DNA from: Spisula solida
Lineage: Eukaryota; Mollusca; Bivalvia; Venerida; Mactridae
NCBI GenBank assembly: GCA_947247005.1
Contig: OX365960.1
Span: 20,646,533-20,710,532, forward strand
DNA length: 64,000 nt
Reading direction: 5' to 3'
The position numbers and the translations under genes are program-made. The notes beneath the pieces were generated by a model, which did no database searches, had not been told where the DNA came from, and saw only the letters and a program-made list of their open reading frames with translations. Positions 8,133 through 56,200 of this stretch are shown here, piece after piece (within the stretch, counting starts at the first letter, position 1; every line of letters begins with the position of its first letter).

Positions 8133-11100
8133 GTATGTGTCGTTGGTTCGACGTTCTGTGCAAGACAATTTTTTGCGTAACCTCGTGTCCGCTCTAGCTT
8201 TATGTTGTTGGTTTTTAAGTTGCTTTGTGTCTACTAGGCTTAGTGTCCACGTTATTTTGCCATAACACGTCATGTGTGTGTTCAAATGAAACCATTTGAA
8301 ACAGCCAAATGTTCATTCACAGGAATGATATTCGACTTTGTGTTGGCCCATATTTTCACAAATCATTCATTCCTAACATGATTTGGGATTTCAACTTGCT
8401 TCTGATTGCCCCCTGTTCACTTCAAGTATGTCCTGACAAAAGTTGCGACATTAAATCATAATTGCTTATGTATGATTTCAGTGAAAGTAATATGTCTGCA
8501 TGTGCTATTATTGATTTACACGGTCGCCGAGTGGCTTGGTGGGCGATTGGATAACGCTCGTGACTACTGACCGAGAGGTCCCTAGTTCAATCCTCGGCCG
8601 GGGCACTTGGTCATTTCTGAAAACTTTCCCACCCAACTAGAGATGAACTGGTTGGTAACCCAGAGGTAATCTCACGTGTATCAGTGCTATACACCGGGCA
8701 CATTTAAGATACAAGGAGTCTATTCAGGATAAGCTAGAGTAACGCACCCGGATTCCTTGTATCACGCCCCTGTCTCTTCATTGATTTTATGTCTGCCCTT
8801 GTCAGACATACCTTCCAATAATACTGGAAAAGAAGTGTTAGGCAGTATTATAAATAGATTATTAGATAGATCTATACACATATCAGCAACATGCTTATAA
8901 TTTATATGTTTCCACTATGTTTTATTCCTTTATGGAATAGCATATAGTATTGCCATGCTGCTGGCCCACGCATTAATAATCAGGGAGATTCGACCATTGC
9001 ATGTATGAAAATATTACTATAAATAAATGTAAAATAATTATGATATTATGCGACTTTATTTACAGGTTGCGTGAAGTGTCTGAGAAGATAAGTCGCCATG
9101 GATATACAGCGCCAAGTGCTTTATCATCATTACGAAACGTAACAGTTACACAATGTGTCATTGGTCCACAGTATATTGCATTTCTACTTGAGGTAAAATG
9201 TCAATCGCATAAAAGATAATCATGACTTTCTTAATTTTCTTTTTTTAAGTTTCTATCGACTCGAGCGCTTACAATACAACTTGGGCTCTAAAATGGAACC
9301 CACAAGGTAAAAGGAAAAGGGGATCTCCATATAACTCCCGGCAAAGAAATGTCGAAATATAAATTAAAAGAGAGTGGCAACACCTGGATCTCAATTAAAT
9401 GAACTGCTGGAAACAAGAGTCAGATAGAGAGAATTCATCAATGGCCTATGCTTCCAAGTGGGCCAAAGTTCCTAAATAAGTAAAACAAACATATATTTCA
9501 GAGTTCTCGTAGTCTCGAATGAATGAATAAATAAGGACCACATAGCCCCTTTGTTCTCGGATAAAGCTGAAATAAATGTCGCTACTTTATTCACATAATC
9601 ATTGTATATTTATATGTTTCAGGATGGGAAGGTTTGCCGAGTACCATTTTCAATTCTTAATGAACGACTGGATCTGAATAAGAGTGAAAACACAAAACTG
9701 TGAGTATAGAACATTGTAAAGCATATTTATTAATTGTTCAATGGCTAAATTTAAATTGTTCAATGGCTAAATTTGACATTTTGTGGTTTTTGAGACAATC
9801 AATACAATACAATCAGAATCCTCACATTTATAAACATTCAGATGGACTACTACACACTTTGTTTATTCTGCTACACAAATACCTGGCAACTTACTTGTTG
9901 CTGCATAAGTTCAGTAATTCATTCTTGGTTTTAAAAAAAAGTAAATTAATATGTTGGCTAGATACAACATAGTTTTGGGTTTGATGTTCACCTGAAACAA
10001 ATGCTACTCGTGTTGTTTAACTATGTTACTCAGATTCCTTTTATCACACAACCAGGCCTTAACAAATATTTTTAAAAGCACTTGTCTTGCAATATAGACA
10101 AAGGAAAAAAACACTAAAATCTAACTTGTCCTGCTATACGAATAAAGAAGGAAAAGTTTGCAGGACGAGCAGACGAGTAGATTTATTGAGGCTTGACAAC
10201 TGTCATTTTCTTCGAGGTCATTGGCTGGGAAAATCTGACGCCTGTCTCAGTCAAGCACAAAAAGCGAACAACCTCAATTGAAAGATTATTTGAAATTATG
10301 ATTTAGCCCAAATACTAGTAAAAACTGTCATTTGGAGACTATAATTATTATGCTATTGCTAAACACAACTTTAAGCCAATATTAGTTCATGGTCATACCA
10401 CAGGCTCTTGGTGCAATTTTAGGGTCTGGCAAAAAAAATACTCAAAACACTACCATAATTTTTTGCCTGACCCTAATACTAAAATTGTACTGAGAGCCTG
10501 TGGGTCATACATGTCAGTGTGGATAAAGTTTTTTGTCAATACCAATAAGATGTTGTTTTGTACATTGGATGTTTTTGAATGAAATAAATGTATATTATAG
10601 GCCAACTAAAGCAGTGAAGACAGAACGAGCTGGAAGTTCACGTTCAACGACTCATGTTGTCGACAGTCCACTGGTACTAGTATCCGACGTCACTGGTGGA
10701 ACTGTAGAACAGCCAGCTGCGTAAGTAATCCAAGACCCCAGTACAAAAACCAACACAAAAGTGCCTATATTTTTGTTATGGATTAAAATCGTAACATTTA
10801 CAAAATGAAGTGATCAAACATTTGGCAGAAAATATAAAGTTTGCATGCTCATAAATATCCAGAAATGTTAAAAAAGCTAATTTTAGTGCAGTGTACTAGT
10901 CTTAACTGACACTGTTGATGATTGCTTTAAATCACACATTCATTGACTAGTCCACCACCAACAGTGTGGTATAGTCCAGAGAATTTGACACGACTCTCGA
11001 ACTTTAATTAGCATAATTTAACAGCTGATTTCTTGTCTATATTTATAATCCCGGTTGTATGTTTTTATAAGCCAAAAGTATCACGAAGACACTCAAGGTG

Positions 11101-14100
11101 TAATACCGACACAAATCTTTAAGACCGATATTGCACGGTTTGCTCGCAGAAATTTATATATTCAACGCAAGAACCTTGTAATATATTCATGCATGAAGGT
11201 CAGGATCATGTCAAATACTCTGTGCTTTAGCCTATATATTGGGAGTTTTTATTTTTTCCCTCCTCCTGCTGACATTTTACTCGTCAAAGTCTGAAGTACT
11301 AAAAGTTAAAAACTCTGGCCTTAAACATGTAACTGTTAGATATTTATCATATTATTTGGTTTATAGGAGATGGAGTACCGTAGTTTCTGGTTCACCGGCC
11401 ACAACTACCACCAGAAATAATACAACAACTGGACAAGGTTATAGGGCTATGCAAAGAACAGTGCATGTAAACAGAGGTGGTCGAAGGTCTGGAGTCATTG
11501 TTGGTACCCGTCCATTGGTACCTGCGTCAGTCGTCCCGGAGGAACTAATCAACCAGGTAGGTTTATACTGGTTATACTCCTGTCATGAAGTGTGGCATAT
11601 TATTGAGTCACCACAGATTTCCGTAAAACTAACATACTTGACTGACAAATTTTGGCCAAGATATTTTAAATCACAGCAAGCTCAGTCTATATACTGCCGA
11701 TACAGTTTGTGACAATTTGTTTTTTGGATTGACAGATTTTAAAGGCTTGTCAGACCTAATTCCGATCTATACATACATCATACATGCAGGTGGTCTGCTC
11801 TGTAACTTCAGATTCTTTTAATAATTGACTGTTCGATAACCAGCCAGATTCCATTAAAATTGATAAATTTAATGTTGTATTGAATTTTCGTTCAACTGAA
11901 GTCAAGTTGTCCTACTATCCTGGATTTGCTGCACTGGAAAGAATGAACATTTCTGCAGAATATAAAAGTTATTTTATGAAAAAATTCAAATTATTGACAA
12001 AGTTATTGTCATTTGAAATTTCAGAAGCTGAATTTTAACAATAGACATTGTTTAAACTCACTTTTAGTGTAAATATGTGCGTTAATGTCGCTGGGAACAG
12101 ACTTGCGACTCATGCCTCAGTAGGACCCCTGATATTATACCTGTAATCTTAACACCAGTACATGGCATATAATGGTTATGGACATTTTGCCCAGTTCAAG
12201 TATGATAACCTGGCATAATTATATAATTATAGTCATATGGAGACGTGGATTTAAGAAGGGATGTTTGTTATTCCCCCCCCCATCTTTGATGAGGGGTATA
12301 TCGAGGGCTCAATACAAAACAGTTGTAACTATGTATGATTTTAGAAGGAGTTACAACTTCTTTGCACTAGGCTCTCGATATTGCTTTGCACCTGTCTGTC
12401 GGTCAGTCAGTAGACCAAATGGTTTCCTTTCGATCTCTCTTTTTGCCTTTGGATCTTCAAACTCATGGAGATTGGTCATAACGGTAGATAACCTCCATTG
12501 ATTTTGAAGTCAAAGGTCAAGGTCTCAGTGACCTTAACCATTACTGACTATTTGGCTGCCATGAGGGCATACATGTTTTACAAACATCTTGTTTATTTCA
12601 GTGTCAAGTTGTTTTACAAGGAAAATCAAGAAATCTTATTATTAGAGAACTTCAAAGAACAGTAAGAGTTATAATTCTTCTTCCCCACCCTGTCCATTCT
12701 GTTACTATTTATTGCAACTAGCCTGTTACAAACCTGTTTGTTTCTTGTAGAAAACACTTGAAAAGGGTTACAGAAATGTCCAGGTGCCCTGGCTTAGAAC
12801 CAGGGACCTATCTGTGCGTAGTCAAGAGTGTTGAACTTGTCTATTTGACAACCATGCCACCAAAATATTTGTAAAGGAACGAGTTTATAAATAAGCTTAG
12901 CTTTCTACTCAATCCTTAATATGTGTAAATGAATGTTATTATATGTTTATAAAGAAATAAATATTGTTTAAACTAAACTAAAATATTTGTATAATAAGAG
13001 TATAAAATGTCTTATTGTTGATCATCTCGAAAAAATGTATTGATCTTCTTGAAATATTTTACTCGATTTGAAATGTTTTAATCTTCTTCAAATTTGAAAT
13101 GTTTTACTCATCTTGAAATTTCTACCTTCAGAATCTGGATGTAAATCTTGCTGTTAATAATTTACTAAGTCGTGACGACGAGGGAGAGGGTGATGATGAC
13201 GACAGTCAGGACTCGTACGTTCCGGACGATCTAATTTCTCTGTTAGATAGCGGCATGCATCCCGATCATCCCAGTGTTATCATAGATGGTGATGCAATGT
13301 TCAGTGAGGACATGTTCGGATATTCTTCCATACGAAGCCGTGGTTCTGGTGCTAGATCACGATTAGGTAACCTATCGTTTATATGTAAATAGCTTCTACA
13401 GGCCTGGGGTGGTATTCAATATTGATCTTATTTAATTGGCGAATAAGGATAGCCAATCACAGTGCCTGTTACTGACCAAGAGTTTAATATGGTGTGGTTT
13501 GATTGGTTGTCCTTATCCTTAAGTCAAGTAAGATTAATACTGAATACCACCCCAGGTATTTTTCAGACCCGGGTCTGATTTCAGGTTTTTGCATCCTGAA
13601 TTTCCTTTCTTTGTTTGGGTTTTCAGAACTTGCACCTATGTGCATAGCTTCTACCAAAATTTGAAAACTTGTTGCAGTCTTGTCTGCACACCTTTGTCAG
13701 GGTTCCCACGGTCAGGGAAAAGTCAGGGAAAAACATAATTTTTTCAAGGTCAGGGAAAAGTCAGGGAATTATGAAATTAGTCAGGGAAATTTGGAAATTG
13801 AGCCAAAGTCAGGGAATTTTTCATTGAAGCTGTCGCTAAGTGTCATTTCCTATGAAGAAAATACCTAAGAATGGAAAAAATTCTCGCTCGCTGTGCTTGC
13901 TCAGAGTATTATAAGTTGTATTAAATTAATGTTAATCAACAAACTGCTAACCAAAACTCTTTTGTTCCATATACATGTATATAGAGCAAATATAGCCTCC
14001 TTTTCTCTATTTTATTGCCATATTTTGCTCTAACAAAAAGATGCCGATGTCGCCCGATCGCTCTAAAAAGTCAGGAAAAACTGCTCTGTGGTCAGGGAAA

Positions 14101-26100: not shown

Positions 26101-29100
26101 GCAGATTTAGAATGGGTAGGTAGGTAGGGTAAATATTTTTTTTTTGGAATTGTTTCAGTATGATTATAGTTAATAGTCTAGACATACAAAGAATGAATTT
26201 TAGAATTAACTCTAAGGTGAAAACCAACTAAAATTTAATGGTGAGAAAGAAGCCAGCAAACAAAAAATACAATTTTCACTTCCAATTTTTAATAAAATAA
26301 ATATTATTTCAATTTGGGCAATAAAATATTTTGGGTAGGGCCCTTTTTAATCGGGTAGGTAGGGGATGGGGAAACAAACAATATTTTATTTTAGGCCTTA
26401 CCCCAATACGCAGCTTATCTGTAGCTCTGAGAAAGAAAGAACTTTTCTGTAGTTATTTGAAATTTCCTAATCTGAATTTTTACAGTAGAACACTGTTTGA
26501 ACTGAGTTATGGTATAGGGGTGTGTGCTGATCAATGGCAACAGAAACACATTAAAATTTTGCGACTCATTTTCAAGATTAGTCATTGTGTCAAAGTAGGA
26601 CCACTGTTTAACACGAATGTTACAAAAAATAAAATGTTATAATCACTTTATTCCTAAATCAACGTAGCTGAAATGGTTAATAAAACAATCCTAAGATAAC
26701 TAAATTTGGGGCTAACCTGACTTCTCGTAAAGATGGACCCTTATTCTACCTTCTCTTGATGGCTACTTGTCCACCTTGCATAAAGATGCTCCTGAAAATG
26801 GCCTTTGTGTATCCCCTCGAAGCCGGAGGTCATTGGCAGGGATAAAACCTATTTGCCACCCAATACGACTGACTCAGTTTAAGTAAAATAATATTGTAAA
26901 AAAGTACAAATGGCCAGGCACTACGCTTGACTCAGTCGAAAACAACAAAAAAATTAAATAAAGTATGAATGACCAGGCTTTATGTCTACGACTGATTCAG
27001 TCCAACGCGAATTTTAAAAAAGAATGTATGTATTGTTGTAGCTACGACGGTTGGTGTCAGTAGTACTACGACTGTGACCAGCAGTACAAGTGGATACACG
27101 TCCACATTAGAGGTGATGAACGCTGTCTCCAGTGCTGTAGATGCTCTAACGGCCATACAGTCTTCTAGAAGTGGTCCCAGTACTGGACCCAGCCCAGACA
27201 CCTCAGGACGAGGGTGAGTCCATTACGCTTGATTACGCTATATATTTATTTCTAATGAAATAATATTGGGCAACAGGCTAAGCCTATGATTAGCAATCTT
27301 CTTTAAACAAGATACATGCTACAAATTGTATAAATGTGGGTCCATTACTCTTGAAACAAGAGTTTCAATGTGTTAATTGCACCAAAAACAGAGTAAAACT
27401 TACTTTCATGATTGGACATTTTGCCTTATAGAGATGCCACACTACAATGGCTCCTATTATATTAATGAAAAAAGCCTTATAACTAGAACATGTAATACAG
27501 TACAAACTCTAGAGCTACACCCTTTGGGAAACAAAGAATGGTTGTTGTTCAGACGTTTCTCTGGAGAGGTAAAATGTATAGTAAATGGTTACATATGGAA
27601 CAAAATTATTATGCTGCTTAAAAGAGGTTGTTGGTCTATTGAGGGCTGCTCTGGAGAGGTTTTATTGTATTTTACGTATTCAGGATGAGTTTACATGAGA
27701 TGTATATGTGTTGTATTCAGGGTGAGTTTACGTGAGATGTATATGTGTTGTATTCAGGGTGAGTTTACGTGAGATGTATATAATTATGTATTCAGGATGA
27801 GTTTACGTGAGATGTATATACATGTATGTTGTATTCAGGGTGAGTTTACGTGAGATGTATATACATGTATGTTGTATTCAGGGTGAGTTTACGTGAGATG
27901 TATATACATGCATGTTGTATTCAGGGTGAGTTTACGTGAGATGATGAGACGAGCATCATCAGCAGCTAGAGCTGTCAGTGGATTAGATGTCAGGGACCCG
28001 GAGGAAGGAATGCCTATACCAACACTCAGCTGGCCACCAGATCCACCTAGTTACGAGTCAGTCACTAGACAAGGTATGTTCACCACTCTTCCTTGATTGT
28101 CCTAGGTTCTAATTGTCTTGGTATAAACTTTGAATAGTCACAGAATGCTTTTTTCTGCTTTAGTTTTTGCCAATTATTTCATTGAAAAAGCTGTTGCTAA
28201 AATCAGCCTGGAACGTTTATTTAAAATATGAAACAAGTCCAAACGTAAAATATGTCATAGAAAAGTTTAAATATACTTTCATTACATAAAGGCCTCTGAA
28301 CCTCTGAAAAAATTCTGTAACTGATATTTGCGAAATAAGGATCACGTAATTTTAAAGTGATTTACAGTAATAATGTAAGTGTAATACCTTCAATAATTAG
28401 GAATATATTGCTTTGCACATGTCGGTCGGTCTGTCAGTTGACCAAATGGTTTCCATTCAATAACCCAAGAACGCTTGACCCTAGAATCCTCAAACTTTAC
28501 ATGGAGGTTTGTCATCAACAGTAGATGACCCCTAAAGATTTTGGAATCAGTAGGTCAAGACAAAGGTCAAGGTCACTGTAACCTTTACCATATCTGACGT
28601 TTGGGCTGCCATTGGGGACGGACATGTTTTACAAACATCTCTTGTTACAGATATAGACCGTCCTTCATTGAGTCGGCAATCATCTAGTGGACAATCCTCG
28701 TCCATTCCTCTACCATCTGAGTTCACCACTATCAACATACCAGCTGTAAAGGTGGAGGAGAAAGAACGTGCTAACGTTGCCTTGCAGATTCTGAAACTGG
28801 TGTGCGAGTCCAATATACTCAAGCCTCATCTTAGAGATCTTCTCTCAGCCAAGTAAGTTGTGTGTGTTCATGTCAAACTTTATTCATGTACTGCCTTTTG
28901 CCTCTTTGGGTGTGAGAGGTCTTGGGTTTGATCTGAGGCTGCTACATACCATATTTGTTAAAACTGGTATTTGTATATCTCCATAGTTCTAGATAACTGA
29001 TAGTTAGGTTAGTATGAGGATACTATGACTGGTAGTTTCAATGTGACCCAAATACTGTTGACCAGTGGGTCTTAAAACAAATCTTTTTTAAAAAAATGGT

Positions 29101-32100
29101 AAAAATGTTAAATCAGAAATGATCCAAGCTCTAATTGGTTGAATCAGAAATTATCTGAGCTGTAATTGGTTATTCAGGAATTATCCATGCTCTGATTGGT
29201 TATTCAGGAATTATCCATGCTCTGATTGGTTATTCAGGAATTATCCATGCCATGATTGGTTGATTCAGGAATTATCCATGCTCTGATTGGTTATTCAGGA
29301 ATTATCCATGCTCTGATTGGTTATTCAGGAATTATCCATGCCATGATTGGTTGATTCAGGAATAATCCATGCTCTGATTGGTTCAGTCAGAAATTATCCA
29401 TGCTCTGATAGGTTCATTTCGGATTAATCCTTGCTTTGATTGGTTGATTCAGGAATTATTGATGCTCTGATTGGTTGATTCAGGAATTAACCTTGCTTAG
29501 ATTGGTTGATTCAGGAATTATTGATGCTCTGATTGGTTCAGTTATGAATTAACCTTGCTTTGATTGGTTGATTCAGGAATTATTGATGCTCTGATTGGTT
29601 CAGTTATGAATTAACCTTGCTCTGATTGGTTGAATCAGGAATTATTGATCATTTGATTGGTTGATTCAGGAATGCTGAGGGTTGTACACCGTTCATGCAA
29701 GCAGTGAAAGGACGAGCATATACAGCAGCCATTATTCTGTTGGATACCATCAAACGTGCGGCTATAACCAAGGACAACGAGGATGTTGACAAGAATATCA
29801 TGATGAGTATGTTATACCCGACTGGATCCAGTCTCGATAACTCACCACTGCATGTACTGTGCTGTAACGATACGTGTAGCTTCACATGGACAGGTGCTGA
29901 GCATATCAACCAGGTAGGCAATTTACATGTATGTCTAAACAGGGGTCCTACGATTCCGGAATAATCCAGAAATCCAGATTTGTTGCATTAGGAAGAATTA
30001 TCTTTTCTGCACAAAATTAAAGTTATTAGGTGAAAAGAATTACCAAAGTTATGGTCATTTGAAGTTCCATGATCAGAATTTTAATAATAAAACATAGTTA
30101 CGGTGTAGGAATGTGTGCTAATGGCACCCAAAACAGACTTGCAGCTCATATTCAGGATTGGGTATTATGCCTCAGTAGAATCCCTCGTCTAAAAGGGTTT
30201 TCAGGGTCAGTGAAAAAAATCAAGATCAGGAAATGTTAGTTTGGTAAAAAAAAAATTAAATGTTGATGATCAATTAGGCAAGGAAAGTTTCTTATTTGAA
30301 AGCAGAGAAGTTTGAGAATATACAAAAAGGGTCATCCTTGTTGTCTGTATGAAATATAACCTGCCAACACTTGTGTCAAATTTGGTTAAGTCTGAAACTA
30401 TTGTCAATGGTCTGAAGTTATCTAGAAAGGAGTGTAAAATGTATATATATATAATTCGTAGGTATTCCGTATTAAGTTCTGATGAAGGCTTTCTTACCAA
30501 ATATTAAACTAAGTGAAACAAACAGAAGTGTTACAATGTATATTGTTTGTATTATAGGATATATTTGAATGTATTATGCTTGTATTATAGGATATATTTG
30601 AATGTATTATGCTTGTATTATAGGATATATTTGAATGTATATTGTTTGTATTATAGGATATATTTGAATGTATTATGCTTGTATTATAGGATATATTTGA
30701 ATGTATTATGCTTGTATTATAGGATATATTTGAATGTATATTGTTTGTATTATAGGATATATTTGAATGTATTATGCTTGTATTATAGGATATATTTGAA
30801 TGTATTATGCTTGTATTATAGGATATATTTGAATGTATATTGTTTGTATTATAGGATATATTTGAATGTATTATGCTTGTATTATAGGATATATTTGAAT
30901 GTATTATGCTTGTATTATAGGATATATTTGAATGTATTATGCTTGTATTATAGGATATATTTGAATGTATTATGCTTGTATTATAGGATATATTTGAATG
31001 TATTATGCTTGTATTATAGGATATATTTGAATGTATTATGCTTGTATTATAGGATATATTTGAATGTATTATGCTTGTATTATAGGATATATTTGAATGT
31101 ATTATGCTTGTATTATAGGATATATTTGAATGTATTATGCTTGTATTATAGGATATATTTGAATGTATTATGCTTGTATTATAGGATATATTTGAATGTA
31201 TTATGCTTGTATTATAGGATATATTTGAATGTATTATGCTTGTATTATAGGATATATTTGAATGTATTATGCTTGTATTATAGGATATATTTGAATGTAT
31301 TATGCTTGTATTATAGGATATATTTGAATGTCGTACGTGTGGTCTACTTGGCTCACTATGTTGCTGTACTGAATGTGCACGTGTCTGTCATAAAGGACAT
31401 GATTGCAAGTAAGTTATCCTTCTTATATTGCTCACTGTCATTATGCCCCCGTATCGATAGATCGGGAGGCATATAGTGATTCACCTGTCCGTCCGTCCGT
31501 TCGTCCGTTTGTCCGTACGTCCGTCCGTCCGTCCTGGTTAACCCAAATTGACCGTTTCTTCTAGCATTAATATGGCTTGCTACAAAGCTTCCAAACTTGC
31601 ATAGATGTTGTATATGAACACTCTCCACACGCCAGTATCACCTAACCCCATTTTGACCTTCACCTTGACCTAATTTTGGACTTAGACTTATTTATGGACA
31701 AGGCTTCCACAGGGGGCATAAGCGTTTATTGAACGCAGTCTTGTAATTAGAGCTGTGGTTCGTGAGCTGGATTTGTAACCCAACGATTGATACCGATCTT
31801 GACAGATTATTCCTCTGCGTCATACCAAAGACAAAATAAAAATGGTTCCAGAAATTCCCTTGCTTGACTTGACGCTCAGCAAAAAAGGGAAACTGGCTTC
31901 TCTTCTCTCATACCCTCATGGCGATGGATAATATCAGGAATGAGGCGTGGGAAATGATTAATAACAGGGGCTCTATAATTCCAGATTAATCCGGATATCT
32001 GCATGTGCAGCTCTTTAAAGAATGATCTTTTCTGCAGAAAATATAAGTTATTTGATGAAACTAAGTTATGGTCATTTGAAATTTCATGAGAAAAATTTTG

Positions 32101-35100
32101 ACAATAGAACACTGGAACAAGAGTTTTTGTGTAGGCATGTGTGCTGATGCCACCTGGAACAGGCTATCATCTAATTTTCAGGATAAAGCATTATGCTTTA
32201 GTAGAACCCCTATAATAATATAAGTTGAAAAAACTTGTTTCACAATCGACCTTAAATAAATCAGTATAACCTATTATTTTGAGTCGTGTATGTTTTCAGA
32301 CTGAAGAGGACATCACCTACAGCGTATTGTGACTGTTGGGAGAAGTGTAAATGTAAGGCATTGATAGCTGGACAACAGGGTCCCAGACTGGATCTACTCA
32401 ACAAGCTTCTAGCAGAAACTGATCTTGTTACACTAACTAACAGCAGGTAAATACATAAATAACTGGCTCAGACTGGTTTAGGAGAAATGTAAATGTAAGG
32501 CATTGATAGCTGGACAGCAGAGTCCCAGACTGGATCTACTCAACAAGCTTCTAGCAGAAACTGATCTTGTTACACTAACTAACAGCAGGTAAAACACATG
32601 CATATCTGGAGGGAGAACCGAGGACTGGATCCCCTCCTGGAATTTTGTAAAAATGTGATTCATTGTCTTATATTCCAGTCTGCCAAATTAGCACTTGTCT
32701 GCGACATGTAATTTTTGGTTAGGGCAAGTAACTTCTGCAGGAAATATGTATTGAATATAAAGCAGGGGTGTCAATTTTCCTGATTTATCCGGAATTCCGG
32801 ATTTATCATTCCTGAAAGAGCAATGGTTTCTGACCAAAATAAAAGTAATTTGATGAAAATATCTCAAGAAATTGCAAAGTAATGGTAAATTTAATCTGCC
32901 TTGAAGGATTTTCTTTAATTCAAATTGGGTTAATTATGGAACCATGTCATTGAATGCATCTTGTTTGGCAAAAATGGTTGGCCGCATATGATTTTCCTGG
33001 TTTAGATTTGGCCCTGTTGACACCCCTGATAAAGGAAGACTATTCACTTTTGCTGATTTGGGCGAGTTGTTTCAAATCCTAAATCCACAGATTGATCATT
33101 CTATGATAACATAGCAAACCTGTATGATAATCTTATAGTGTTTTAAAGTTTTATAGTGCATTTCTCAAAACTTTTTGATCATCCCACTTTTAAAAATTCA
33201 TTGTTAAATGTGGAATATATTGCGTTTTTAGAGGGGAGAATATTTTATTATTCCTGGTACAGACAGTAGGCCGACAGTTGGTGGAACAACGTCAGTACAG
33301 ACCTAACCGTTCACGTGTTACATCGGCCGTACCTCGCAAAGCTCCTAACGTTGACCTAGGTTAGTTTTATTTGTAGCATTATAATAATTGTGTAAATTGA
33401 AGACCTAGAGAATATGCCTTGATAGCCTAGTTGTAGAGCATCAGCTTCAGCTACCACTTCAAGTCTCCATTCCATCCCAGGCCGCAGAAGTCATATGTCA
33501 TAAAAATGGTACTTGTATGTCTAGCTTGCTTGATGCTCAGTAAAGTTAGTTCCAGGTAACTACTGGTTCACTCGGTATCGGGATAGTGTAACTGAGTAGA
33601 CTCCACATGACAGAAATACTGTTGAACAAATGAAGAGGTCAAGAATATCCGTTGATTGGTTTCAAGTGGAATAGAAATATCTCTTTCCAATCAGCAAATT
33701 TTCCGTTTCTTTGTCTTTCGGTTTCTACAAAAATTGTGGTTTATTTAGCTGAAATTGGAAAAATTGCATGCCAGCAACATTATGGCATCCCTATTTTGAC
33801 AAAATTACAGAATTCTAAACCATTGCAGTCACCTTTCATTTATGGTTTTGAACCAAGAATAAGTTCATACACAGGGAAATGATTTTGAAGTGGGTCCACC
33901 TCGGTGGCCTAGTGGTAGAGCGTCTGTTTTCGAGTGTGAGACGTATTGGGTACATTCCTAGGCCATGATACACCTAAGTCATTAAATATGGTACCGATAT
34001 ATCTACTTTTTTTGACACTCGGCATAGTTACTTCCCATACATTTAAAAAAACTAAAGTCAAATGATACACTGTTTGATATTTCACTCGGTCTTAAATATT
34101 TGGAAAATGATGGAAAACAAGCATATCATGTAGTTAAAAAAGATATCTTTGTAATTTTGATAAAGTCTTTTTCGGCGAAATTTTAAAGACTGAGTGAAAT
34201 ATTGAACAGTGTTATGTATGAAATATTTGTCCCTTAATTGGACCTTATTCTGAGATCCAGTGATACATATTATAATTTGTTTCAGATGTTGAAATGCCAG
34301 AGCATGACCTTGAGCCTCCACGATTCAGTCGTCGTGCCCTTGAGCGTATATTGAACGACTGGACAGCGGTGAAGGCTATGTTACTGAGTGGTATGCGACA
34401 CAAGCGTGTTAACAATCCAGATATTGTATATGAGGAACAGTTATATCTGGAGAGTCAGAGTGGAACAGCTAGGCTTGATAAGTTCACTCACTGTTTGCTG
34501 GTCAAGTGTAGTGTGGAGGTAAGTTCACGACTGTTGTTTACCGAATTCTAAATGGTCATACCATATTTGCCCAAGTATCGCACACTGCTGTGTAATGGAT
34601 GAATATTTTTAAACAGTGGGAGATGATCCAAAGAAAACAGTTACACTAAAGAGTCTAAATTTCCATCGTCCTTTTGATAAATTTCTGCTTGAATGTACTC
34701 AATTCAAGCCCTGATCAAATGAAATCCCTGATTACTATGAAACTATTCCTAAGATTAATAATCCCATGTTTCCAAGTGGTGGGGTATTGAGGTCAGGGCC
34801 TCTCGATGTTGGCTGCACACCAACCAGGAGAGAAATAGTCTCCTCAAGAAGATTCGAACTCTGGTTTACGAACACAGGTTTCCTTAGGTAGCCCAATAGC
34901 CAGGGGAAGTTAAATGCCCTCGAAATTTTGTAACATGTTTTTTTTTCTTATGTTTCTAGATGCTGGATACACTGCTGACTACACTGATAGGAGAGATGAG
35001 AAGTAAGACAGAAGGCAGGAAAGTAGAAGCTAAAATGGTTGCTAGGAGATTTATACGTTCTGTAGCTCGCATCTTTGTAGTCCTCAATGTCGAAATGACT

Positions 35101-35217
35101 CCCAATTCCGGCAAAAAGAAAAGGTATGCTGTGTAACAGTGTTCGTAGTTGAATTTTTATACCCCCCGCACAATGAGTTAAAGGGGGGTATACTGGATTC
35201 AGCTTGTCTGTCTGTCA

Positions 35218-35264
<47 letters not shown>

Positions 35265-38200
35265 CGTAGACGCATTCTTGTGGACACTACTCCTTCAGTT
35301 TTGGCAGGATTTTGCTCAAACTTTCACAGATGAACAACCTCAACATATAGATGTGCATGAAGAAAGGAATTTGCGCTGCGATTAATTTTGGCATAATTAT
35401 GGCCCTTTGCCGGCTGGGGTCAATTAGTCTGCCGAATGGTGACAGCTCTAGTTAGTTCTGTACACTGCTCCTCTTTACACATTTTTCAAAACAGTAAAGT
35501 TTGTAAATATTCAGATTAATTTAGAGACCTGGATTTGTTGTGCTAGAAAGGATAAACTTTTATTCTGAAAATGAAAGTTATTTGATGAAAATATTCAAAG
35601 TATTTACTAAGTTATGGGCATTTGAAATTTCATAGGCTGAATTGACAAAGCTTTTGGTGCAGGAATGTATGCTAATGGCACCTAAAACAGACTTTATATC
35701 ATATTTTCTGGATTCAGCATTATGCTTCAGTAGGAGCCTTGTGTAATTTTTTAAACGTAAATCCTCAATTTGAATACCATACTAGACATGTGACTTGTAT
35801 ATTTTAAGCCCGGGAATTCCCTCCTGTCAACCCCTAGGTAAATGCAAGAGAGCTTTCCAAGCCTTGATTAACATTGCTGTAGAAGAATTGTGTGAGATAG
35901 CCAACTCCCTGATAGCTCCTGTCAGATTAGGGGCCGCTCGACCCACAGCCCCTTTCTCATTGGTTGTAGCTAATGTCGAGGCGGTACAGGTAAATATTAG
36001 TCAATTTCTTCAACCAGATCATCCTTATAATATTTCTTAAGCCTGAATCATCATGTTATTAAGGACATACCAAGTGTGCAGTGGTTAACCCAGCAATCCG
36101 GGTTTAATTCCTACTCACAGCAGGTCATACTCTTCTATGAAAATTGACAACACTTTCGATTTTCTTACACATGTGAAGTTGTTTGATGCTGGTGAAAGAG
36201 TATGGTAAGTAAGTACTGGTAAGAATACAATCCAGGAAAAGGGGTAAGGTGAATTGCTGCCGTATATACCAAAAAATGGTTGAGAATAGGCATTGAAAAG
36301 TATTGGCTAAGTTATCGTCATTAGAAATGTCATAGGTGAATTTTAACAATAAAACAGTGTTTTTGGTGTATGGATGTGTGTTGACGGTACCAGAAACAGA
36401 CTTGCAGATCAAATATTCTGGATTGGGCATTATGCCGAAGTAGGTCTCTTGTTACACATTTTGCATGAGTAGGTCTCTTTGTTACAGTACAAATGTATTG
36501 CTGGCCTAGAAGAAGGTCTTTAGTGTTCCTTCAGACCTTATAAGACTCGTACATATTTGAAATATGCACCACAAGGCACTTCTTATGAGCTTATTTTCAT
36601 GAAAATCGGAAGCGGTCATGTTAACCAAACTGAAGTTTAAAAAGCTTGTTTTTCCATAAGTAAAGAGTAGTTTTCAGACAGTTTTTTTAGCTCACCTGTC
36701 ACAAAGTGACAGAGTGAGCTTTTGTGATCACTCTTCGTCCGCCGTCCGTCTGTCCGTACGAATGCACCGGTAGTTGTGGGGTGTGGAACAATAGGCTATT
36801 TTTAGATTCCATTCATTCCGTCACTTGTGGGGTGCAAAATGCTACTTGTGGGTTGCAACCAAACAAAAGAAAGAACAAAAGAAAACCCCACAAGTACCGT
36901 CTCATGAGTCCGTCCGTCCGTCCGTCCGTCCGTCGTCCGTCCGTCAACAATTGGCTTGTGTAGACACTAGAGGTCACAATTTTAGCATAATCTTTATGAA
37001 ACTTGGTCACAATGATTATCTCAACAAAATCTAGGCCAAGTTCGATATTGGGTCATCTGGGGTCAAAAACTAGGTCACTAGGTCAAATCATAGAAAAACC
37101 TTGTGTAGTCACTAGAGGTCACAATTTTGACTTAATCTTTATGAAACTTTATCACAATGATCATCCTAACAAAATCTAGGTCAAGTTCGAAATTGGGTCA
37201 TCTGGGGTCAAAAACTAGGTCACAAGGTCAAATCATAGAAATACCTTGCGTAGTCGCTAGAGGTCACAATTTTGGTCTAATCTTTATGAAACTCGGTCAC
37301 AATGATCATCTGAAAAAAATCTAGGTCAAGTTTGATATTGGGTCATCCGGGGTCAAAAACTAGGTCACAAGGTCAAATAGTAGAAAAACCTTGTGTAGTC
37401 ACTAGAGGTCACAGTTTGGCCTGATCTTTACGAAACTTGGTCACAATGATCATCTCAACAAAATCTAGGTCAAGTCCGATATTGGTTTATCTGGGGTCAA
37501 AAACTAGGTCATTAGGTCAAATCATATAAAAACCTTTTGTAGTCACTAGAGGTCACAATATTTGCCTAATCTGTATAAAACTTGGTCACAATGATCATCT
37601 TAACAAAATCTAGGTTAAATTTGACAGGTGAGCGACCTAGGGCCCTTTGGGCCCTCTTGTCTTGTTTTCTCAAAACATTGCTTTTGTACTTACGACCTTC
37701 TAATTCTAAGCCAGGGACATGCAGAGCCCAATATGTGTTGCTCTACAGAACTTGTACTGTATTGGTCATCCATATTTATCTACATCCTGACATTATTATT
37801 TTGATACAGGGAAGTGAGGAGATATTCAGTGTTGATCCACTGCCACCAAAGTCCTCATCAGTAGATGAGTCAGCACACTCTGTATCGTACGTCACTCACA
37901 GTATACCTGACAGAGACGTCACCAGTGATCGGGAGAATGTCGACCATGGCGACAGAGAGGAAGAGGAAATGTTACCTGTAGATATTGAAGAAGATGTAAG
38001 TTTAAGTGGTTTTCTAGGCCCTACTATTCCGGAATAATCCGGATTTGCTGCAGTAGAAGAAAAAAATTGTCTGCAGAAAATATTTAACAGGCCTGTGATT
38101 TTTCAGGCTTGTGTCTGATTTCAGGTTTTTGAAACCTGAATTTTCCTTCTTTGTTTATATTGAAAAATAGAGTTTCAGGCTTTGAAACTGGAATTTTCAG

Positions 38201-41200
38201 GTCTGAGAATTTTTGCCAATTACCAGGCTTGAAATAAGTTATTTGATGAAGAAGTACCAAATATTGACTTATATTGAGTTATGGTCATTTAAAATTTGAT
38301 ATGCAGAATGTTAACCAAAGATCATGCTTCATATTTTTAGGATTAGGCATTATGCCTCAGTAGGACCCCTGGGTTTTAATACTGATAATGCTAGTATAAA
38401 TTTTAACTGGATTCTTTGAATTATGCCACCTATGCTCCCTCAAGGTCAGAGGTCATTGAACTATCTGGCAGGGAAAAACCAATGACCGCGTACTTACGAC
38501 TGTCTCAGTCAAACATGAACAGCAAACAAACCATGCATTGTATATGTTGTGTTTATTATTCCCTGCCAAAGGTGAAGGGGTATGGTAATAGTCAGTGTCC
38601 GTCCTTCTGTTCGTCCCGTATTTTGTCCAGAGCATAACTCTAAAACTAATTGAGGTATTGACTTGAACTTGGTATCAGAATAGATGGCAACTAGGAGAAG
38701 TGCAGTGACCATAACTCTGTATGGCCAAGTTTTGAAATTATTTCCCTTGTTACAGATTGAAGTAGTTGGCAGTATGTTGATGGTGAATGATGACGGGCAC
38801 CAGTCTGACAACGACGACCACCAATCAGATCACTCGGAACATGACCAGCCTCCACCTGAACAAGATGACGTCGCCGAGAGCGACATGGACCTTGACCTTC
38901 TAGCTGAATCAGAGAGTGACAGCGAGAGCATGCATAGTAACCAGGATAATGTTAGTGTTCAACGTAGTGCTGTTACCATGGCAACTGCTGGATCTGATGC
39001 AGGTATGTACCATCAGTTGTTGTTTGTCTATCACAGGGTGTCAATATTTCTGATTTATCAGGAATTCCGGATTTATCTATCTTAAAGAGCTATGAATTCT
39101 TACAAAAATAAAAATTATTTGATGAAAATATCTCAAGAAATGACAACGTTTCAGTTAATTTATTCTGCTCTGAAATCTTTTATTCTATTAAAGTTCAGAT
39201 AAATATGGAAACAATATGACTGAAGGCCTCTTGTTTTGCAAAATGGTCAGCCCCCATATGAGTTTCAGGATTTTCAATTTGGTTCTGTTGACATCCCTGC
39301 ACAGTATCAGAGGTTTTACCATTCCGATATAACCCGGAAATCTGCATTTGCTGCACTACAAAGAATAAACTTTTCTGCAGAAAATAAGTTATTTGATGAA
39401 AAATTCAAAGAATTAACAAAGTAATGGTCATTTTAGTTTCATTTAAGCTGAATTTAACAACAGAACAATGTTTGAAACAGTGTTGTGCTGTATGGATGTT
39501 TGCATAACAGATTTGCTACTCATGTTCAGAATTGGGCATTATGCCTCGGTAGGACTCCTGCTCTACAATCTTCAGGCAATGTTCATTAATGGGTCAACTT
39601 GGTGAAAGTAAGATTTTGTTACCACCAGGCCAAATGAAAAAACTTTGTTAGCATTCTAACATACAAAACACAACATGAATTTATTCATTGCCTCTATTCT
39701 GAATTATTCTAGAATATTTTGCTTCAATTCACAAAGGATCGTCAAATTTTCAGTGCATGACATAAAAATAATACTTATTTCATTTCGAGGGCTCAGTGCA
39801 AAACTATGGTACAGGCCTATATAAATTGATTGTAGTTACCATAGTTTTTCACCGAGCCATCGAAAATTTTAATCTTTTTTGTTTTAAATTCCTACCTACC
39901 CTACATTTTGGCAGTATGTTACCAGAACCACAATATTACAATATTAATTAGTTCTGATCTAATTGATGGAATATTTACAGGTATGGGAAGTCTGGCCCAT
40001 TTTTCCGACTCCGGAGAAACGTCCAATCAGGAGGAAGAATATGAAAGTGAAGGCGGAGATAGTGAGGATCACGAAGGGGAAGACCTTGGTACACTTGATG
40101 AGCAACTTGAACGTAGAAACAATGCTGGTAGGTTCTGAAGTTTAATAAAGTTGATGCTGAAGTCCAGTGGTTAGTGTGCTGGATTTGTAACACGGCCATC
40201 CATGTTAGATTCCTAGTCGCGGCAGATCATTTCATTCTATGAAATTTTGAGAACAATGTTGATTTTCCTCCACATGTGGAAGTTGCTTGTTCCCTTGTGA
40301 AAGGATAAGTCAGGTATTGGTTTGGATACAGTCCAGGAAAATGGTGAATCTGCAGCTGTATATAACTGTAAAATGGTTTAAAACAACGTTACGATAACAT
40401 ATGGTGGGGAGAGAAATTGATTTTCTGCTTTACTTTATATTGTCAGGAATTTTCGATCAGGTGATTATGGCTCTTTGAGGGAGACATACTGTAAACCTAG
40501 AAATTATTTCTAGATATATGATTTAGTTTCGCGGAGTTCGCGAATGGTAGAATTACGCGAAATTACGTCTCCGCGATAGTGCTAAAACTGCAGGAAACTT
40601 AAAAATACGAAAATTTGTAGTCGCGAATATGCCCACGATCAGCAAAATGTGAAAGTTAATATTCGCAAAAGTAAATTGGTTTACAGTATGTTTCTAGTTT
40701 TCTATGGTCTTGTACTAGCCACCTGAACATTTAAGAAAAGTTGCAATAGTCTGTAACTCAGTACAATTATGTATGTAAATTATTTTCTGTTCATTATCAA
40801 ACATGTTTTGTGTATTACAGCTAAGTTTTGTGTATTACAGCAAAGTTTTGTGTATTACAGCTAATCAAGGACAGAGAACTCTGCAGGCACCACAGACGAT
40901 GCAGTGGGCTATACGACAACGTGAGACACAGAGTACCCGAACCCCACCCACAGTAGCTACAACTACAGCATCTACTGCAGGTCTCATTCTTTATTTCTAC
41001 CTTTAACATACTCTGTCATATCGTTAGCGTGGAAATCTAGTCCTAAATGTGTCATTATTGCTTAAGAGGTTAAATCATTGTTATTTTGCTTGGAGAATTG
41101 TTGCCGAGCATAGCTTTTATTTGCCAGTCAGCTTTCTGTTCAAATATAGCAGGCATACGAGTGCCTTTACCCATATTTGAACCTAGGTCGCCAGATTAAA

Positions 41201-53200: not shown

Positions 53201-56200
53201 AAACCAGTTGAAAATAATTAAAACGAAAGAAGAATTTTGTTTTATGTGGCTAAAATTTAGGTTTATGTGGCTAAAATTAGACACAAAACTACCTTCATTG
53301 CATAAAGTAGTCACATAAAACCGTTCTGTAAGAATGTCTGTCTGTCAGTCAAAAAACTGGATCCTGACATAACTGAAACAGTTTCCGAGCTATGTTTATG
53401 AAACTTGGTATGTGGATTGGGGGGGGGGCAATAAGGGAATTATGCACGTCTAAAAGTATTTTGATTTTGACAAATATTGTGGTTGCTATGGCGACAGAAA
53501 CATTGAAAATAATTTAAATGTCATGGCTTCAAACTGGTAGGGGACTTCTGTATTGCTTGCAATTCTTAGTGACTTGTTCTCATTAACCTATGGTCAGATT
53601 TCAATGAAACGTCACATGAATATTTGTACTAGGCCTTGTTGTGCATATTGTCAGGAATTTAAGGGCAGACGATTTTTGCCAGAATTATGGCAAGACATGT
53701 TTTTGGTGCCAAAGTTCCTTGTATTGAGTGAGACTATTAGAAATGTCATGTAAATTGAGTGAGATTATTAAAAATGTTATGTTAATTGAGTGAGACTATT
53801 AGAAATGTTATGTAAATTGAGTGAGACTATCAGGAATGTTATGTTAATTGAGTGAGACTATTAGAAATGTTATGTTAATTGAGTGAGACTATTAGAAATG
53901 TTATGTAAATTGAGTGAGATTATTAAAAATGTTATGTTAATTGAGTGAGACTATAGGAATGTTATGTAAATTGAGTGAGACTATAGGAATGTTATGTAAA
54001 TTGAGTGAGACTATTAGGAATGTTATGTAAATATGATCAGTTAGTTACATTTAGTGTTAATTTTGTTCAGATTTGATTCAACGTTTGAGGACTCGTGAGC
54101 GTGAACGTGAGAGAGAAAGGCAGAGAACATCCTCTTCACAAAGACGTAGCAGTCGTGAACGTGACTCCCGGCGGACATTATCATACGATGCACCACCATT
54201 CTATATGCCATCTGACGCGAGTCCGAATCCGTCAAGTAACCCGGAACCACCACCAGAGGGCAGTAGTGACACTATGACACAATATCGACGTCAACTAGGC
54301 GAGAGATTATACCCTAGAGTGAGAGCGCTGCAACCAGTGAGTTCGATATACATTATATATAATCACTGGAGGCCTCCATTTATAAAGTCTATGACTATGT
54401 AATAAATACCAGGAAAAAAGTATAAATTTCACGACAATTTTGTTTGAAGAGTATGAGCCCTGGTTATACTTCAAGGTTCGCACAGGCCTTGAAAAGTCCT
54501 TGAATTTGGTTTTAACTTGAAAAGTACTTGAATTTAGTGCTACCTTGAAAAAAAAAGCCAAAATAGTTCTTGAATTCGGACAAAAAGCCTTGAATATCCA
54601 TGAAAATGTATGGATGTTGTCAAAATGGCTCATTGTCTGCATAAAAAAGGAACAAAGTACATGAATGTATGGGTACGAATGTAGTGAACCTGGCGCAATC
54701 GAGCATTCTTTTGATGTCGCTAGAAATAATAGTTTATTAAATGGCAGTGTATAATGGCATTTTCGTTCAATTCAGCCTTGGTAAGTGTTAAGAAAAATTC
54801 CTTGCAAATACCTAATCTACCTAAAAAAGTCTTTGAGAATTTGGGTGAGAGAATTTTGTATAAACCATGTACTTCGTTTTTGCAGGCACTGGCTCCAAAG
54901 ATCACTGGTATGTTGCTTGAACTGTCCCCGGCACAGTTACTTGTCATGTTAACATCAGAAGAAACATTACGACAGCGAGTCGATGAAGCTGTCGATATAT
55001 GCATGTCACATAATAGGTACGTTTATTAACATCTCTTTGTTTGATATTTTCAACCATAATCTGACCTCAGCTGTCTATGTATGGAATGATTAATGTCCGC
55101 TACAAGTGCGAGGGGTCACGGAGGTAGCGGTTTTGATCTCAGGCTGCGCCATATCAAAGCCTTTGAAAATAGTACTGGCATATCTTCCTCGCTTGATGCT
55201 CAGTAAAGTTAGTTCCAGGTAACTACTGGCTCACCCGGTGTCAGGTTAATGTAACCGGGTAGTCGCCATATGACTAAGATACTGATGTTGACAAGTGGGA
55301 CATTAAAAATGAATGAAGAGATAATGACAAAACGGGACTACAAAAATTATAAGAAGTTCAGTTCCTTGGGACCCATTTTATAGACATATCTTAGCTTAGC
55401 TCAGACTTTTCAATAAATTATTAAGAGCATTCTAAATGAACTCGTACATAAAATAGTGATATAATAATTCTAGTTTATATAACTTTGCTTTGTTGTACTT
55501 GCTGTCTTCGTTTGCTCTAGTGTCTCTCAAACGGACCCCTGGAGTGGTATTCAATATTGATCTTACTTGACTTAAGGATAAGGACAACCAATCAGATCAC
55601 ACAATATCAAACTCTTGGTCAGTAACAGGCGATATGATTGGCTATCCTTATTCTCCAATTAAATAAGATCAATTTTGAATACCTACCCTGGTCATCTCGC
55701 TTTTTTTATTAGTCTCCTACCGGCTTTAGACCGGAGGGGGGACTATAGGTTGGCCCTCCGTCAGTCAGTCAGTCAGTCTGTCTGTCCGTCAAAAAATCTG
55801 GATCCTGACATTACTGAAACAGTTTCCAAGCTAGGGTTAAAAAACTTGGTATGTGGATAGGGGGCAATAAGTGGATTATGCACGTCTAAAAATATTTTGC
55901 AACAGAAACATTGAAAATGGCTTCAAACCTGTAGGGGACTTCTGTATTGCTTGCAATTCTTAATGGCTCGTTAAAATGTTATATTATATATTACAGGGAA
56001 CAGAGAGAATTGAATGCTGAGGCATTATTAGATCTGGATATATTCAATCTATCAGCTACCAGTAGTAACTCGAGTAAGAAGAAGAAGCCGGCGTCACAAT
56101 CTGATCGTCGTAGTGATATTGACGAGGATGACGACATGGAGGACAATGCTCCGTTATTCTGGCAACCTGGTAAAAGAGGCTATTACAGTCCTAGGCCAGG

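Follow-up and report, generated by a model that had tools for sequence, protein, structure and literature searches.

Why should tandem arrays in the introns of a single gene run up to the 3' splice junction, repeat the acceptor in unit after unit, and stop a few bases inside the exon? The question is raised by a 64,000-nucleotide stretch of contig OX365960.1 of the clam Spisula solida (hereafter the window), which contains the gene for the HECT-type E3 ligase UBR5. A first-pass annotation of this DNA had reported arrays of this kind before exons 22, 24, 25 and 34, at four of 49 introns, had suggested a process that starts at acceptors, and had known of no named description. Such a name exists, since excerpts of two reports on amphioxus (PMC3087553, PMC3902484) describe tandem repeats spanning exon/intron boundaries as mirages. 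The reading favored here, with a probability of about 0.8, is that the clam structures are mirages, produced by near-neutral tandem duplication across splice junctions. The arrays and their occurrence at both exon edges are observed directly, while the neutrality and the mechanism of duplication are inferred.

The four arrays were borne out by Tandem Repeats Finder (TRF) and the gene model, together with their overlaps into the exon, reported as 19, 4, 15 and about 4 nt and found to be 19, 4, 15 and 4 nt. Additionally, a duplication at the donor of exon 26, absent from the first-pass annotation, was identified.

27676..27943, plus strand: array 1, 43 nt x 6.6 by TRF, seven acceptor copies, ending 19 nt inside exon 22
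29113..29673, plus strand: array 2, 31 nt x 18.3 by TRF, about 18 acceptor copies, ending 4 nt inside exon 24
30535..31331, plus strand: array 3, 33 nt x 24.2 by TRF, 24 acceptor copies, ending 15 nt inside exon 25
40805..40864, plus strand: array 4, 20 nt x 3.0 by TRF, three acceptor copies, ending 4 nt inside exon 34
32471..32609, plus strand: donor-side mirage, an intronic copy of 32331-32466, 92.1% identical over 139 columns

Array 1 consists of seven units, six of them 37-43 nt long, and the last crosses 19 nt into exon 22 (GTATTCAG/GGTGAGTTTACGTGAGATG, the slash here and below marking a splice junction). The exon edge stays single at all four acceptors, as had been claimed, and the arrays make up 35%, 68% and 56% of UBR5 introns 21, 23 and 24. 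The units at exons 22 and 25 are exon-derived. The exon part of array 1 encodes residues of VSLREM, present in 23 of 120 relatives, and that of array 3 encodes residues of HINQDIFEC, present in 107 of 120; because the repeated bases encode residues that relatives share, the exon must have supplied the array sequence. The donor-side case has the same form. The segment 32331-32466 comprises the last 116 nt of exon 26, the donor and 20 nt of intron, the two copies lie 142 nt apart, and 102 exon positions hold three mismatches. Use of the second donor would lead to an immediate stop.

Copies of array 3 are 97% alike by TRF, a degree of likeness that would suit an assembly artefact. This is the least probable of the alternatives, given that the array 3 copies carry ordered variants, those of array 2 are diverged (81% matches by TRF), and the two-copy cases are 87-92% identical. 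Two unit types form a higher-order arrangement (period 99) on the 5' side of array 3, and a single type is present near the exon.

The gene itself is identified by its closest relative, Ruditapes philippinarum UBR5-like, with 84% identity across 2555 aligned positions, and exon 24 matches PDB chains named UBR5; a Pfam search with one piece of the gene returned the UBR box only, below threshold. The homology-guided model, in which some exon edges were placed by hand, has 50 exons and 49 introns between 8071 and 61213 and encodes 3234 aa with no internal stops and one terminal stop. Its exon numbers are those of the first-pass annotation. A gene finder used without homology support chained exons too freely and was not relied on alone. 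The exons that adjoin the repeats are these:

27925..28073, plus strand: exon 22, its first 19 nt being the repeated exon part of array 1
29670..29913, plus strand: exon 24, placed by PDB matches and the homology model
31317..31408, plus strand: exon 25, the start of the UBR box
32300..32446, plus strand: exon 26, its 3' part and donor duplicated downstream
40861..40980, plus strand: exon 34, placed by the homology model

Further cases were sought in the window and the 240 kb around it, both strands of which were scanned for arrays with an edge overlapping a plausible exon. All four UBR5 cases were recovered as positive controls, and a donor-side array was flagged in an SLC6/SNF-type transporter gene on the other strand (L003:490-665). 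There, an exon ending in ...FLFTPHWG/gtatgt is followed by its own junction in tandem: a unit of 20 nt of exon and about 15 nt of intron occurs in five copies, giving five near-identical donors spaced 35, 35, 32 and 35 nt apart. The piece resembles PDB 4us3, a sodium-dependent transporter that is presumably MhsT, over residues 3-68 of the 70 submitted. Through the first donor the frame reads HW-E-SFKEPRLW, in agreement with HWESFKEPRLW in Ruditapes, and three of the four alternative donors lead to a stop. The same gene carries an acceptor-side duplication of 139 nt (L004:3376-3695; 86.7% identity over 181 nt) with a 46-nt partial third copy, in which the copied acceptor reads TTTAAG in place of TTTTAG. 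Four more flagged exons were left uncounted, one being array 1 itself on the opposite strand and three lying in the flanks; the latter bore no resemblance to known proteins by eye. KIF13A, which adjoins the other side of the window, was modeled with 22 homology-supported exons, a few of whose edges look uncertain.

Units that hold both exon and intron sequence are thus found at exons 22 and 25, at the donor of exon 26, and at the donor and the acceptor of the SLC6-like gene, so that both exon edges are affected, as in mirages. At exons 24 and 34 the overlap is just 4 nt, which makes them weak examples. Such short overlaps would be expected if intronic minisatellites had simply happened to reach an acceptor, their few exon bases being accidental, and the introns are indeed full of repeats. 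Genome searches, which rank the best candidates only, were run against the 932-Mb assembly of 36 contigs and divided the arrays. Among the candidates scored, array 3 matched only its own locus, and array 1 matched its own locus and, at 73-74% identity, a single array on another contig; array 2, in contrast, had matches on eight other contigs (67-74%). The core of its unit, CTCTGATTGGTTGAT, is common to both outside arrays inspected (L023 and L024), with which the unit aligned at scores of 13 and 11, against a mean of 1.3 and a maximum of 12 in 200 shuffles. Chance accounts poorly for the repetition of coding sequence at exons 22 (19 nt) and 25 (15 nt), and with array 3 matched only to itself and array 1 to one weaker relative it is unlikely as a general explanation, even though the recurrence of the array 2 core elsewhere speaks for it.

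Arrays whose units are otherwise different were seen to carry CTCTGATTGGTTGAT, as though minisatellites were seeded by a shared motif. A separate tandem repeat of 145 nt in intron 30 of UBR5 (36955-37624) shares its consensus start with a 145-nt array on another contig (L023:2159-3252), and the two perhaps belong to a dispersed, satellite-like family. Two other UBR5 arrays, 53723-54032 and 13033-13121, end 38 and 10 nt before the acceptors of exons 43 and 7, the latter distance being 38 nt in another TRF run. At intron 21, which begins GAGG/GTGAGT (27210-27219) and is followed by exon 22 as CAG/GGTGAGT (27922-27931), AGGGTGAGT stands at both ends, which is expected from tandem duplication of the AGGT type or could be due to chance. 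Recursive splicing of array 1 through CAG/G/GTGAGT was considered and dropped, as acceptor and donor would lie one base apart and each step would add a base.

If expansion began at 3' splice junctions, for example in a process coupled to splicing or transcription, and grew from there into the intron, acceptors should stand out from donors. Counted over three neighboring genes only, acceptors are affected in 4 of 49 cases in UBR5, 0 of 22 in KIF13A and 1 of 9 in the SLC6-like gene (5/80), and donors in 1 of 49, 0 of 22 and 1 of 9 (2/80). The acceptor-versus-donor comparison that the first-pass annotation had proposed therefore yields no difference on these genes (Fisher p 0.44; p 0.36 for the 4 versus 1 of UBR5 alone). 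The array at exon 34 was caught by TRF and missed by the BLAST test, and BLAST-only totals are 4/80 acceptors and 2/80 donors. Neither restriction to acceptors nor a strong enrichment there is seen over the three genes, while UBR5 alone shows an excess. A direct repeat within 4 kb spans 544 of 2000 random intronic positions in UBR5 versus 13 of 1000 exonic ones, which indicates that duplication itself is commonplace in its introns.

The placement of UBR5 arrays was compared with a null in which the TRF arrays were set at random with limited exon overlap, under thresholds chosen after seeing the data. A first set of 24 arrays was picked by hand, with overlapping rows merged, periods below 10 dropped and four two-copy rows omitted; restoring these (starts at 9227, 21736, 36862 and 49262) gave a set of 28. 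Random placement predicts 0.57-1.11 acceptor overlaps for the 24 arrays, with a probability of at least four of 0.002-0.02, and 0.65-1.19 for the 28 (0.004-0.03). For the nine arrays with at least three copies and a period of at least 15, the expectation is 0.29-0.66 and the probability 0.000-0.002. When either edge is counted, the probabilities become 0.03-0.21 (24 or 28 arrays) and 0.001-0.03 (nine arrays), and two acceptor overlaps of at least 15 nt arise with a probability of 0.005-0.18. The smallest overlap counted was otherwise 4 nt, and the spread within each figure comes from the choice of arrays and of the exon overlap permitted.

Position within the intron gives a similarly divided picture. 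Six of the nine larger UBR5 arrays lie in the last 10% of their introns (Kolmogorov-Smirnov, KS, p 8e-5), and at a higher TRF score the eight larger arrays remaining give p 0.00035. Arrays below 2.5 copies tend toward the 5' side (p 0.004 for 11 arrays, p 0.026 for 15), and the UBR5 arrays pooled are unbiased (p 0.16 for 24 arrays, p 0.39 for 28). No clustering at acceptors appears among the 30 arrays of KIF13A and the SLC6-like gene, with two in the last 10% and three in the first 10% (KS p 0.36), although two introns, 15.8 and 19.9 kb long, contain 18 of these 30; the SLC6-like donor array, which TRF reports as 2.6 copies of a 67-nt double unit, is outside the 30. Within introns of those genes shorter than 4 kb, none of nine arrays lies in the last 10%, compared with six of nine in UBR5 (Fisher p 0.009). 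The modeled KIF13A intron of about 19.9 kb (right flank, 77.6-97.6 kb of the reversed stretch) holds eleven minisatellite arrays, one of 91 copies.

The acceptor bias may therefore be peculiar to UBR5, or it may be a fluctuation. A process that begins at acceptors draws on the UBR5 figures, namely 4 of 49 acceptors versus no donors by TRF and the crowding of larger arrays toward the 3' ends of introns. It is rendered improbable by the donor-side cases in two genes, by the uniform placement of the 30 arrays next door, and by the 5' lean of the short UBR5 arrays and the lack of bias in the pooled ones. The origin proposed in the first-pass annotation is accordingly not sustained. What remains of interest is the recurrence of such structures at 7 of 160 junctions.

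This recurrence, together with the single exon edge, fits near-neutral duplication across junctions. A duplicated segment made of intron tail and exon head, or of exon tail and intron head, would leave one copy on the intact exon. If that copy is the one spliced, the mRNA would be unchanged and the extra copy would become intron, making the event nearly neutral, while duplications that alter the exon would be removed. The intronic array could then grow and turn over as minisatellites in general do, through slippage or unequal exchange. Under such a filter the single exon is a matter of survivorship at either edge and not the mark of a process that seeks acceptors. A bolder extension, tentative and on balance doubtful, holds that this kind of duplication, with 7 junctions of 160 affected over three genes, is frequent enough in this bivalve lineage to rank among the main ways in which introns lengthen and cryptic splice sites arise, and that some genes, such as UBR5, add a real local acceptor bias through a mechanism linked to transcription or splicing.

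Near-neutrality supposes that the splicing machinery can single out the copy on the intact exon. Upstream acceptors score 9.1-10.3 at exon 25, where the one used scores 9.1; 5.9-9.2 versus 5.4 at exon 22; and 13.8 and 10.4 versus 11.6 at exon 34. Of the 22 AGs upstream at exon 24 the majority are weak, and six score 7.4-8.2 against 8.0 for the one used. The first-pass annotation had the spliceosome facing 7, about 19, 24 and 3 near-identical AGs. As counts of acceptor copies these figures stand (7, about 18, 24 and 3). In array 2 only 7 of 23 AGs, including the one used, reach the score of the weakest among 45 reference acceptors. Tests covered 40 upstream acceptors (6, 9, 23 and 2 at exons 22, 24, 25 and 34, those of exon 24 scoring within 2 of the weakest reference), and splicing to any of them would bring in a premature stop 2-38 codons past the exon start; in array 2 each AG upstream of the one used, 22 in all, would lead to a stop before the normal end. 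The reading frame predicted from the intact edges, by comparison, agrees with the ortholog proteins.

Selection among the copies might proceed in more than one way. Under the scanning model of AG choice (outlined in excerpts of PMC1431707), a unit of 31-43 nt could have room for its own branch point, tract and AG, so that the choice would be made by branch-point and exon recognition, and exon definition would pick the copy attached to the intact exon. At exon 34 the 20-nt unit is too short for all three elements, and competition among AGs should matter there. AG exclusion zones measure 27, 31, 33 and 15 nt at exons 22, 24, 25 and 34, where the median over the remaining acceptors is 42, and zones of 15-16 nt also occur at exons 19, 26, 43 and 46. 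The extra acceptors might instead be functional decoys, or serve to control UBR5 splicing through poison extensions that lead to decay. By score the upstream copies appear splice-competent, and every tested extension carries a stop or breaks the frame; AT-rich extensions would contain stops in any case, however, and the copied SLC6-like acceptor, with TTTAAG for TTTTAG, looks like neglect. Such a function is judged very unlikely.

Several observations weigh against near-neutral, junction-built duplication as the account of all these structures. Since its unit core recurs elsewhere in the genome, the register of array 2 with its junction is doubtful, and this array may be a dispersed minisatellite that reached or supplied the acceptor. 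The excess of acceptor overlaps in UBR5 reaches nominal significance against random placement and has no explanation under this account. At exon 34, with an exclusion zone of 15 nt, AG scanning alone would favor an upstream AG that breaks the frame, and the site used in splicing is at each junction deduced from orthologs. One of the four alternative SLC6-like donors, 102 nt further on, leaves the frame open. Finally, junction-spanning repeats were found at none of the 22 acceptors and none of the 22 donors of KIF13A.

If the clam arrays are mirages, their repeated occurrence, at both exon edges, suggests that mirages may be a general feature of animals whose introns are rich in repeats. Register with the acceptor would need no special mechanism, as a filter for unchanged mRNA could suffice. 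The arrays also offer natural test cases, with as many as 24 near-identical acceptors in competition and a single one that preserves the frame.

Repetition of a splice junction in tandem has precedents. Human IFI6 (6-16) has a donor junction within a tandem minisatellite; it resembles the clam arrays in the repeated junction, and differs in lying on the donor side and in that its alternative donors are said to be used. Minisatellites at exon-intron boundaries are likewise found in human segmental duplications, where excerpts of PMC2812944 describe boundary internal tandem repeats averaging 30-bp units x 4; these can alter the transcript or form new introns, whereas the clam reading frame appears unchanged. 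The potato RdRp gene, according to excerpts of PMC4974935, gained an intron by a duplication crossing the 3' intron-exon boundary (the Rogers model). That duplication, like those in the clam, carries branch site, tract and AG, but it created a new intron, while in the clam an existing intron appears to have been lengthened.

The closest parallel is provided by amphioxus, for which the following is drawn from excerpts of the two reports. Mirages are described there in Adh3, the globins BflGb6 and BflGb9, PGBD5 and TnC (PMC3087553, PMC3902484), and occur at both boundaries with units of 150-160 bp in the globins and 10-72 bp in Adh3. Both normal splicing and unstable copy number are reported (PMC3087553). 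They have also been proposed as a source of new introns. As in the clam, minisatellite-like duplications extend over an acceptor or a donor and repeat the splice signals, and the Adh3 mirages share both architecture and unit size (10-72 bp; PMC3087553). Length polymorphism and reverse-transcription PCR results are known for amphioxus, whereas the clam structures are known from one assembly alone. Among the matches listed from the open-licence literature, no recognized description of mirages in bivalves appeared. The clam cases differ from those of amphioxus in belonging to another phylum, in reaching 24 acceptor copies, and in occurring several times in one gene.

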